This document shows positions 29,884-33,187 of a stretch of 64,000 nucleotides of DNA, piece after piece; within the stretch, counting starts at the first letter, position 1; each line of letters opens with the position of its first letter. A model generated the notes under the pieces. That model was not told the origin of the DNA and did no database searches. It saw only the letters and a list, made by a program, of their open reading frames with translations. The translations under genes were made by a program, and so were the position numbers. This stretch comes from Halalkalicoccus paucihalophilus (GTDB lineage: Archaea; Halobacteriota; Halobacteria; Halobacteriales; Halalkalicoccaceae): contig NZ_LTAZ01000005.1 in the NCBI RefSeq assembly GCF_001593955.1, positions 210,001 through 274,000 of the forward strand, written 5' to 3'.

Positions 29884-31108
29884 ATGTCTAATAACAACAT
29901 GGACGCCTCCGACACCAGTCGGGGGGGTCGAGTTCTTCCAGGGCACGTTAGCTTCCAGTGACGAGATCGAGACGGTACGGATTTTCGATACCACACTACG
30001 TGACGGAGAGCAGACGCCGCGGACGTCGTTCAGCTACGACGACAAGCGCGAGATAGCAGCGGTGCTGGACGAGATGGGGACTCACGTCATCGAGGCCGGG
30101 TTCCCCGTCAACTCGGAGGCGGAGTTCGAGGCGGTCAGCGACATCGCCGCCTCGACCACCTCGACGGTCTGCGGGCTGGCCCGCGTCGTCGAGAAGGACG
30201 TCGAGAGCGCCATCGACTCGGGCGTGGGGATGATCCACGTCTTCGTCTCGACGAGCGACGTCCAGATCGAGGACTCGATGCACGCCACCCGTGAGGACGT
30301 AAAGCGGCGGGCGGTCGAGTCCATCGAGCGAGTAAACGACGCGGGCGTCGAGGTGATGTTCTCGCCAATGGACGCCACGCGCACGGACAGCGAGTTCCTG
30401 ATCGAGATCCTCGAGGCCGTCGACGAAGTCGGCGTCGACTGGGTCAACATCCCCGACACCTGCGGGGTCGCGACCCCCAGTCGGATGAGCGCGCTAGTGA
30501 AGCTCGTCCGCGAGCACACCGACGCACGGGTCGACGTCCACGCCCACGACGACTTCGGGATGGCGAGTGCGAACGCCATCGCCGGCTTCGAAGCCGGCGC
30601 CGAGCAGGCTCAGGTCAGCGTCAACGGGATCGGCGAGCGCGCGGGCAACGCCGCCTACGAGGAGGTCGTGATGGCCGCGGAATCCATCTACGGGGTGGAT
30701 ACCGGCATCGACACGACCCGGATCACCGAGCTGTCGCGCCTGATCGAGGACAAAAGCGACGTCCCGGTGCCGGCGAACAAGCCGATCGTCGGGGCCAACG
30801 CCTTCAGCCACGAGAGCGGGATCCACGCCGCGGGCGTGATCGAGAACTCCGATACATTTGAACCGGGGATCATGACCCCCGAGATGGTCGGCGCGAAGCG
30901 CGAACTCGTCTTGGGCAAACACACTGGGACCCACTCGGTGCGGGAGTTCCTGACCGAGGCGGGCTTCGACCCGACCGAAAGCGAGGTCAGGGAGATCACC
31001 CGCCGAGTCAAGGACTACGGCGCGGAGAAGAACCGCGTCACACGCTCCGACGTCGAGCGGTTCGCCCGCGAGATCGACGTCGCGCGCCACGAGGAGGTCA
31101 GAGCGTAA
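29884..31108 (+). CDS. leuA: 2-isopropylmalate synthase (or citramalate synthase), with an apparent frameshift near codon 15
   Basis: LeuA condenses acetyl-CoA with 2-oxoisovalerate, the first step to leucine; citramalate synthase is the close alternative. The HMGL-type TIM barrel is clear: RIFDTTLRDGEQTPRTSF, VDVHAHDDFGMASANAI, and SVNGIGERAGNAAYEE. The product is about 405 aa and lacks the C-terminal LeuA allosteric domain of full-length enzymes. The start MSNNNMDASDTSRG from ATG 29884 fits the TATA box, but continuation into VEFFQGTLASS needs removal of one G from a seven-G run (29921-29927). As the sequence stands, an in-frame start at 29858 upstream would bypass it. A short leader ORF and ilvB follow. 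Confidence 0.88.
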
Positions 31109-31171
31109 GATGCCCCCTCGGACGCCCGCCGTCCAGCGACGCCGCGGCAACGATTGTTCGACTCGCAAGGG

Positions 31172-31179
31172 TTATTATC
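31172..31179 (+). promoter_or_regulatory. TATA-like box of the ilvB leader
   Basis: TTATTATC is centred about 28-29 bp before the ATG of the 27-codon leader ORF at 31204. This predicts transcription starting at or within a few bases of that ATG, giving a leaderless small ORF and about 220 nt of mRNA before ilvB. Confidence 0.5.
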
Positions 31180-31203
31180 CCCGGCTGCCGACCCGTGAGG
31201 TAG

Positions 31204-31287
31204 ATGCAGACGACCACCGCTTTCGAGGGAGCCCCCTCCGACAGCGACGCGGTCGTGGCGCGCGGACTCATTATTGTAGGGGTCTAG
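31204..31287 (+). CDS. Candidate 27-aa leader peptide rich in Leu/Ile/Val, upstream of ilvB
   Basis: ATG to TAG encodes 27 residues. The last twelve read [12 protein letters not shown], so eight of twelve are branched-chain amino acids, the products of the downstream operon. The codons before this point end mostly in G or C, but the key residues use ATT ATT GTA, forms that are uncommon in such GC-rich genomes. The ATG is at leaderless distance from a TATA-like box, and the TAG lies in the loop of a perfect hairpin. These are the hallmarks of a leader peptide for attenuation, though that mechanism is not established in archaea to my knowledge. A basic 106-codon open frame (31110-31430) overlaps it but looks like a shadow. 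Confidence 0.5.
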
Positions 31288-31295
31288 CCCCTACA
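31275..31295 (+). promoter_or_regulatory. Hairpin overlapping the end of the ilvB leader ORF
   Basis: TGTAGGGG (31275-31282) pairs perfectly with CCCCTACA (31288-31295) across the 5-nt loop TCTAG, which contains the leader's TAG stop. The 5' arm starts right after the tandem ATT codons, so a ribosome paused there would block stem formation. No strong T-run follows (only CTTTCCT at about 31304-31310), so a classic intrinsic terminator is not evident. Confidence 0.55.
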
Positions 31296-31426
31296 CCACC
31301 CACCTTTCCTGATCCGTTCGAATCGCTTTCGAGACCCACAGCACGCGCGCTCCCAATGTACCATCCACGACCCACCCGCTGTCGACCGTCGTATCGCCCG
31401 CAAACCACAGCCGAACCGGCAGGAAC

Positions 31427-33187
31427 ATGAGCGAGCAACCACCCGCCACGATCGAGGGAACGGAGGACGAACCGCTTGATGGGGACGACCCGATCCCGAC
31501 GCCGGTTTCGACCGGTGCAGGGTCGGTGATCCGCGCGCTCGAAGTCGCGGGCGTCGAGACCTGTTTCGGGGTTCAGGGCGGGGCGATCATGCCCGTCTAC
31601 GACGCGCTGTACGACTCCGAGATCCGCCACGTCACGATGGCCCACGAGCAGGGCGCGGCCCACGCCGCCGACGCCTTCGGGATCGTCGCCGGCGAGCCCG
31701 GCGTCTGTCTGGCGACCTCGGGACCCGGCGCGACGAACCTCGTGACCGGGATCGCCGACGCCTCGATGGACTCGGACCCGGTGGTCGCGCTCACCGGGCA
31801 GGTGCCGACGGCGTTCGTCGGCAACGACGCCTTTCAGGAGACCGATACGACCGGTCTAACCGCGCCCATCACGAAGACGAACTACTTCGCGACCGATTCG
31901 GACTCGGTGGGAGATACCGTTGGCGAGGCGTTTGCGGTCTCGGGATCGGGGCGACCCGGTCCCACGGTCGTCGACCTGCCGAAGGACGTGACGAACGGCC
32001 CCACTGAAAAGGAACCGGGCGAACCCCGAACGCCGAGCACGTACGACCCGCAGACCGAGGCCGACGACGAGGCCGTCGAGCGGGCGGCCCGGACCATAGA
32101 ACGTGCCGAAAAGCCCGTCATCTTGGCGGGCGGCGGCGTGATCAAGGGCGAGGCCAGCGCGGAACTGCGAAAGTTCGCCACCGAGTACGGAATCCCCGTC
32201 GTGACGACGATGCCGGCCCTCGGAGCCTTTCCCGAGGACCACGAACTCGCGATGGAGATGGCCGGGATGCACGGCACCGGCTACGCCAACATGGCGATTA
32301 CCCACTGTGACGTGATGCTCGCGGTCGGCTGTCGGTTCGACGACCGTCTGACCGGTGGCGTCGAGACGTTCGCACCCGACGCACAGATCCTCCACGTCGA
32401 CATCGATCCCGCCGAAATCTCGAAGAACGTCGAGGCCGACGTCCCGTTGATCGGCGACGCCGGGACGGTGCTCGAACAGTTGGCCGCGGAGATGGCACGC
32501 GCGCCCGACGTTCCCGAGTGGCGTGAACAGTGTCAGACGTGGAAAGACGAGTACCCGATGGACTACGCCGCGCCCGAGGACCGGCCGCTGCGCCCGGAGT
32601 TCGTCGTCGAGGCCCTCGACGAAGCCACGCCCGAGGACGCGATCGTCACCACGGGCGTCGGTCAACACCAGATGTGGGCGTGTCAGTACTGGACCTATCG
32701 CCACCCCCGGACGTGGGTCTCTTCTCACGGGTTGGGGACGATGGGCTACGGGCTGCCCGCCGCGATCGGCGCGAAGGTGGCCGAACCCGACAGGCAGGTC
32801 GTCTGCTTCGAGGGCGATGGCTCCTTTTTGATGACGTGTCAGGAACTGGCCGTCGCGGTGCGGGAGAACCTCGACATCACCGTCGCGGTGCTCAACAACG
32901 CCGCGGTCGGGATGGTCCGCCAGTGGCAGGACGCCTTCTTCGAGGGTCGGCACTCCGCGTCGCAGTACCCGTGGGTGCCCGCGTTCGACAAGCTCGCCGA
33001 GGCGTTCGGCGCGCAGGGCTTTGCGGTCCACGAATACGATGAGGTCGCAGAAACCATCGAGGCGGCCGTCGCCTACGACGGGCCATCCGTGATCGACTTC
33101 CACATCGACCCCGGCGCGAACGTCTACCCGATGGTTCCCAGCGGCGGGGACAACGGGCAGTTCGCCCTCTCGGAGGACCAGCTATGA
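31427..33187 (+). CDS. ilvB: Acetolactate synthase, large (catalytic) subunit
   Basis: IlvB is the ThDP-dependent enzyme that makes acetolactate or acetohydroxybutyrate, the first common step to Val, Leu and Ile. The 586-aa protein has the N-terminal Pyr domain with the catalytic Glu in [15 protein letters not shown] (near residue 75). The central domain has the FAD/nucleotide region VILAGGGVI, and the C-terminal PP domain has the [19 protein letters not shown] metal/ThDP motif (near residue 465). The N-terminal 25 residues are an acidic extension. The ATG at 31427 follows AGGAAC, a weak Shine-Dalgarno site, and its stop overlaps ilvN (ATGA). The leader ORF and hairpin upstream probably control it. 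Confidence 0.95.

Follow-up and report, generated by a model that had tools for sequence, protein, structure and literature searches.

A short ORF lies between leuA and ilvB in the window, that is, the whole stretch of 64,000 nucleotides from Halalkalicoccus paucihalophilus that was analysed, and it ends in codons for isoleucine and valine. It raises the question of whether the decoding of these codons controls the branched-chain amino acid genes that follow, as in the ribosome-mediated attenuators of the bacterial ilv, leu, trp and pheST operons. From sequence comparisons, we consider it likely (probability around 0.8) that decoding of the leader Ile and Val codons controls ilvB by ribosome-mediated attenuation.

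The leader ORF ahead of ilvB and its conservation

The region comprises the following features:
31172..31177, + strand, TATA-like box of the leader promoter (TTATTA), its centre about 29 nt before the ATG
31204..31287, + strand, leader ORF (uORF1), 27 codons and a TAG stop, between leuA and ilvB, probably leaderless
31270..31278, + strand, candidate regulatory codons ATT ATT GTA (GTA in 197 of 199 leaders, Ile at codon -1 in 190 of 199)
31427..33187, + strand, ilvB, first gene of ilvBNC-leuCDB (Pfam match)

The original prediction, made from the sequence alone, was of a 27-codon ORF upstream of ilvB that starts 28-29 bp after a TATA-like box, and both were found where it had placed them. The last codons of uORF1 are ATT (31270-31272), ATT (31273-31275), GTA (31276-31278), GGG (31279-31281) and GTC (31282-31284), followed by TAG (31285-31287), and the genes downstream were identified in the window by Pfam matches as ilvB, ilvN, ilvC, leuC, leuD and leuB. 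Seven of the 12 terminal residues of the leader are Val, Ile or Leu, and not eight as first counted. Since GTA accounts for 6 of the 188 Val codons and ATT for 5 of the 102 Ile codons in the ilvBNC-leuCDB genes of the window, the leader codons are rare as proposed, but the tandem ATT ATT, presented as part of the same signature, is not fixed across loci. The window LeuA has Pfam matches to HMGL-like and HCS_D2 only, with none reported to the LeuA dimerisation (allosteric) domain, in agreement with the claim that this domain is lacking.

The conservation of the element was examined at 221 haloarchaeal ilvB places, of which 141 come from 138 of 146 relative genomes (including three second ilvB copies, the second fragments of split genes being dropped) and 80 from named contigs, the best 80 of 416 found; some organisms are present in both sets. 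An absence of the ORF or hairpin from related genomes had been named as evidence against the leader, and the element is present at 215 of the 221 places. These reduce to 203 unique sequences, and the counts are not independent of kinship; conservation of the leader element with ilvB is far beyond chance. When the third positions of the Val and Gly codons were left unconstrained, an in-frame ORF end of this kind was found at 203 of the 221 places, and every one of the 203 had GTA GGG.

The remaining 18 places comprise 12 variants, four ilvB places without the element, in families f10 and f12, and two contigs that are too short, ending before the element region (L241 and L075). Among the variants, the leader stop has become a TGG sense codon in L010 with the hairpin retained, Val, Leu or Phe precedes GTA in L193, L196, L205, L226 and L208, the hairpin is shifted (GTACGGGCC...GGCCC) in L210 and L213, and the leaders end in SVGA or FVGA in the AT-rich genomes L229 and L230. 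In the second ilvB copies L173 and L217, ATT ATT GGGG replaces ATT GTA GGGG, so Ile-Ile is still encoded; these two and the second copy L208 each carry their own leader. The leader of Haloferax profundi (L104), for example, ends in ...AVRSLIIVGA. The pattern TWGTAGGGGY..TARCCCC matched in 15 of 196 genomes, 14 of the matches being the ilvB leader by coordinates; the fifteenth (L242) lies elsewhere, and no ilvB-like ORF is present in the L242 ORF list. The pattern ATTGGGGY..TAGCCCC was found in 0 of 117 genomes; to match the two known ATT copies, its spacer would have to be one base longer.

The reading frame is conserved as well. Of the 203 unique loci, 199 have an ATG in frame at 8-45 codons upstream, without an intervening stop; the other two frames give 5 and 33. 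Two of the four loci that lack it show by eye a GTG after a TATA box. In about 70-80% of the 199 loci, the nearest in-frame ATG is preceded by TTAT at -32 to -29 and by AA at -37/-36, positions that agree with the haloarchaeal promoter (PMC4983044). This promoter-to-ATG spacing suggests that the leader transcript probably begins at the start codon, and the TATA box found some 30 nt ahead of the ATG across haloarchaeal loci supports the predicted leaderless start as probable.

Within the 199 leaders, GGG is present in 196, Ile occupies codon -2 in 87 and ATC codon -1 in 33; in sampled ilvB starts, GTA represents only 32 of 2056 Val codons. The Ile/Leu/Val share is 62% at codons -5 to 0 versus 11.6% in the leader body, where substitutions are equal over the three codon positions (0.182, 0.193 and 0.199 per site in 399 pairs). 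The peptide body thus drifts and the Ile/Val end stays.

Phe and Trp leaders, and Val/Ile leaders in a second family

Among the long 5'-UTRs mapped in Haloferax volcanii, those of pheS and a trpS contain short ORFs of 26 and 23 residues, respectively (PMC4983044), and the upstream regions of these genes were therefore searched here. Phe-rich leaders of the GFGFFF type, with promoter boxes, are present before pheS at 14 of 30 loci (L272-L301, for example L283, L287 and L298) and at 0 of 218 other loci. Trp leaders (W-R-W) precede 14 of 16 bacterial-type trpS genes, a set chosen as such from 30 fetched trpS loci, with W-x-W in 8 of 232 other loci; L319, which was left out of this set, has the leader, and L302 and L311 are without an ATG version. 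By the same comparison, Ile-Val-Gly leaders are found at 40 of 52 ilvB loci and at none of 196 other loci. The Trp leader loci (L303-L317 and L319) include the window's own genome (L305), in which no Phe leader was found before pheS.

A stem of 9-13 contiguous pairs surrounds the Trp codons at 15 of 15 motif loci, in the same place in 12, as counted without a shuffled control, and it takes compensatory forms such as CCGCTCCC/GGGAGCGG, CCACTTCCC/GGGAAGTGG and CCGCTTCCCA/TGGGAAGCGG. In the haloarchaeal loci examined, no His leaders were found before hisG or hisS, no Trp leaders before trpC, no Phe leaders before pheA and no Ile/Val leaders before ileS. As in known attenuators, the short leader ORF carries codons for the amino acid made downstream. 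The best argument for decoding being sensed by the ilvB leader is this match between leader amino acid and gene.

Similar leaders were identified in family f21 (loci L254 and L482-L501), which belongs to the same phylum but to another order than Halobacteriales. A Val/Ile/Leu-rich ATG ORF lies before ilvB in all 21 genomes examined (of 32), compared with about 21% in shuffled sequence, whereas in other families the same test is passed by 3 of 59 genomes of 20 families, as by chance, in a survey that left out f22 and f37. The f21 leaders end 28-46 nt before the start of the ilvB match, and each of the 21 has an AT-rich promoter box upstream of its ATG. Of the 77 Val codons near their end, 67 are GTA, and of the 30 Ile codons, 28 are ATT; over the first 20 codons of ilvB, by comparison, GTA makes up 3 of 23 Val codons. 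Leader termini like ATT ATT GTA GTA resemble the haloarchaeal ATT ATT GTA GGG, and this family keeps the GTA and ATT codons but, unlike haloarchaea, not GGGG. The likeness may reflect common descent or convergence.

Putative read-out downstream of the leader

Between the Ile codons and ilvB, the following elements were delineated:
31275..31295, + strand, hairpin P2 around the leader stop, 8 Watson-Crick pairs and a closing U-G, -14.4 kcal/mol, z -3.5
31288..31310, + strand, C-rich, G-free tract after the leader stop, from the sequence
31251..31264, + strand, 5' strand of helix P1, in leader codons upstream of the Ile codons, clade-limited
31344..31350, + strand, first part of the P1 3' strand, just 5' of the uORF2 start
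31366..31372, + strand, second part of the P1 3' strand, just 3' of the uORF2 start
31356..31430, + strand, second ORF (uORF2), whose TGA overlaps the ilvB ATG as ATGA

The stop codon indeed lies inside an 8-bp hairpin as originally described, with the U-G pair in addition, and the region 31195-31400 has a folding z of -4.4. Across loci, the P2 pairing shows a coordinated swap: A precedes the first CCCC in 15 of the 36 loci with T after GGGG, compared with 1 of the 164 with C there (Fisher p 5e-12, uncorrected for kinship), a change seen in six genera and five named loci. The stem length of P2 is only modestly above that of shuffled sequence. In 158 of 201 loci, the 18 nt after the stop contain at most one G, whereas the mean 60 nt downstream is 3.47 G. 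A role of this C-rich tract as an FttA site was set aside from the main reading and counted with the transcriptional alternative below; FttA prefers U-rich and not C-rich RNA (PMC11616081). A further conserved motif, YGYAYCG, is present in 141 of 199 loci (25.4 expected) at 28-45 nt beyond the leader stop, for example in L143 and L034; in some clades TTTTC comes after it.

No T-run follows P2 in the window, and a search for an intrinsic terminator (a stem with a T-run) after the leader stop found none; without a T-run, P2 is no classical terminator. No member of a T-box or riboswitch family was recognized either, with no Rfam 15 match up to E 5 over 30900-31700 and none at the gathering score in L305, L287, L007 and L180.

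The long-range helix P1 would pair leader codons -7 to -3 with bases immediately upstream of the uORF2 start or surrounding it, and in the window the uORF2 AUG falls in a bulge (31351-31365) between the two P1 segments. P1 takes the forms GTAGCGCGCG/CGCGCGCTAC or GTGGCGCG/CGCGCCAC in genus g1, GTCGAGCGCGTG/CACGCGCTCGAC in g18 and GTGGCTGTCGG/CCGACAGCCAC in g25, and alignments of these three genera recover it. In a contiguous-helix test, P1 scored 16.0 with its own strands versus 13.6 in cross-family swaps (p 1e-7); of four shifted controls, three were flat (p 0.87, 0.71 and 0.5) and one gave p 0.02. In a coarser whole-segment duplex test, P1 gave no signal (p 0.48) and a control region gave a slight one; several genera have a weak P1 or none. 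Judged from these alignments and tests, P1 appears real in some clades and is unproven in general. P1 and P2 nest and are not mutually exclusive.

An ATG frame of the uORF2 type that ends on the ilvB start was identified in 157 of the 198 loci with an ATGA or GTGA ilvB start, versus 20 and 4 for the other frames; 41 of the 198 show no ATG uORF2. Its median distance from the leader stop to its start is 71 nt and its median length 21 residues, and in the same 198 loci no G-rich stretch precedes it and its residues are not conserved. In H. volcanii and Escherichia coli, 13 of 14 tested overlapping gene pairs are strictly coupled (PMC6728339), which makes a translational read-out natural for an ATGA overlap, and the combination of uORF2 overlapping ilvB with the longer-range helix P1, both absent from the original prediction, suggests the same. 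The architecture (ATGA, 157 of 198) is that expected for the coupling of an opened ORF to the main gene in translational attenuators.

From the conserved ORF, codons, frame, promoter spacing, P2 and uORF2 overlap, we infer leader translation, stalling and a switch with the following direction. Transcription would start at the leader ATG or no more than a few nt away, as the promoter spacing suggests, and ribosomes would load on the leaderless uORF1 before decoding its terminal Ile and Val codons, which sit between the 5' strands of P1 and P2. With ample charged tRNA, the ribosome would reach the stop and leave, P2 and, where present, P1 would form and close the uORF2 start region, and ilvB translation would fall, as uORF2 ends on the ilvB start. 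With Ile or Val in short supply, the ribosome would stall on these codons and cover both 5' strands, and termination-reinitiation on the open uORF2 would carry ribosomes into ilvB. We give this translational read-out through uORF2, in the form described, about an even chance of being correct.

A rather doubtful alternative is that leader decoding instead sets the termination of RNA polymerase past the leader stop, via a hairpin or T-stretch, in the manner of the bacterial ilv and trp leaders. Termination at T-stretches and some hairpins is known in H. volcanii (PMC7237163), and some loci carry candidate signals: GCAYCGNTTT about 30-40 nt past the stop in 31 of 199 loci (0.1 expected), TTTT in 61 of 199 (28.9 expected) and a weak terminator-like match at 31253-31265, followed by ACTCATTATT, which lies upstream of the Ile codons and of which 0.1 is expected in shuffles. 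Moreover, a T-run between leader and ilvB is found in 20 of 21 f21 loci, in some of them after a G+C stem. However, P2 has no such run in the window, TTTT is missing from most haloarchaeal loci, the RNA preference of FttA does not fit the C-rich tract, and the uORF2 overlap and P1 point to translation. A translational output is favoured over a transcriptional one at haloarchaeal ilvB; termination may still play a part, more so in f21.

Remaining alternatives and relation to known systems

The near invariance of GTA GGG at the base level, even where GTA is unpaired, could mean that GTAGGGG...CCCC is an RNA or DNA site for a protein, or a riboswitch, and that the ORF is incidental. This seems very unlikely, as the start codon and frame are conserved, the second ilvB copies carry ATT GGGG, the Phe and Trp leaders match their genes, f21 has the GTA and ATT codons without GGGG, and no Rfam match was found. 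A functional small protein acting in trans is less plausible still, for although the ORF is conserved and has its own promoter, its body residues drift, all three codon positions changing equally, and only the last residues, in near-fixed codons, are constant.

Decoding of the Ile and Val codons as the probable control of ilvB has close parallels in bacteria, where the attenuators and the Corynebacterium ilvBNC uORF, with its ilvB-II motif (PMC10272879), likewise combine a short leader ORF with product codons and a hairpin ahead of ilvB. The present case differs in lying in an archaeon, in its probably leaderless leader, in the near-fixed GTA GGG with the stop inside the hairpin, in the lack of an intrinsic terminator after the window leader and in the second, putatively coupled ORF overlapping ilvB. 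Erm-type translational attenuators, in which a drug-stalled leader ribosome opens a downstream start site, would share this last step, but the stall here would come from a lack of charged tRNA rather than a drug, and the opened start would be that of uORF2.

In H. volcanii, the 5'-UTR uORFs before pheS and a trpS have lengths like those of the leaders here, but the uORF section of PMC4983044 gives no sequences, amino-acid match or attenuation reading, and ilvB is absent from its table. The ATGA pairs of this species resemble the uORF2/ilvB overlap, but those of PMC6728339 are annotated genes, whereas the upstream partner here is a short, fast-changing ORF. HVO_1508 (ilvB1) is dealt with in terms of auxotrophy in PMC4300041 and also occurs in PMC2945643. 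No archaeal leader-peptide attenuator was found among the open papers searched, although an earlier notice in H. volcanii small-proteome work is possible.

Taken as a class, the Ile/Val leaders of ilvB in Halobacteriales and a second family, the Phe leaders of pheS and the Trp leaders of a second trpS are rather more likely than otherwise to be amino-acid-specific ribosome-sensing leaders of archaea, with GTA and ATT shared between the two lineages and a terminator-free read-out by reinitiation at haloarchaeal ilvB. If so, ribosome-mediated attenuation would exist in another domain of life, being either old or evolved independently of bacteria, in organisms whose termination and transcription-translation coupling differ from those of bacteria. 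The sensor would be placed on a leaderless start, with ribosome loading independent of a Shine-Dalgarno site. An order-wide leader, together with the Phe and Trp leaders and the f21 counterpart, makes ribosome steering of amino-acid genes testable in H. volcanii, for which genetics exist.

A minor observation concerns leuA. At 29884-29930 of the window, an ATG about 30 nt past a TTTATATA box is out of frame with LeuA, with a run of seven G between, and this frame mismatch may reflect a sequencing slip or a different LeuA start.
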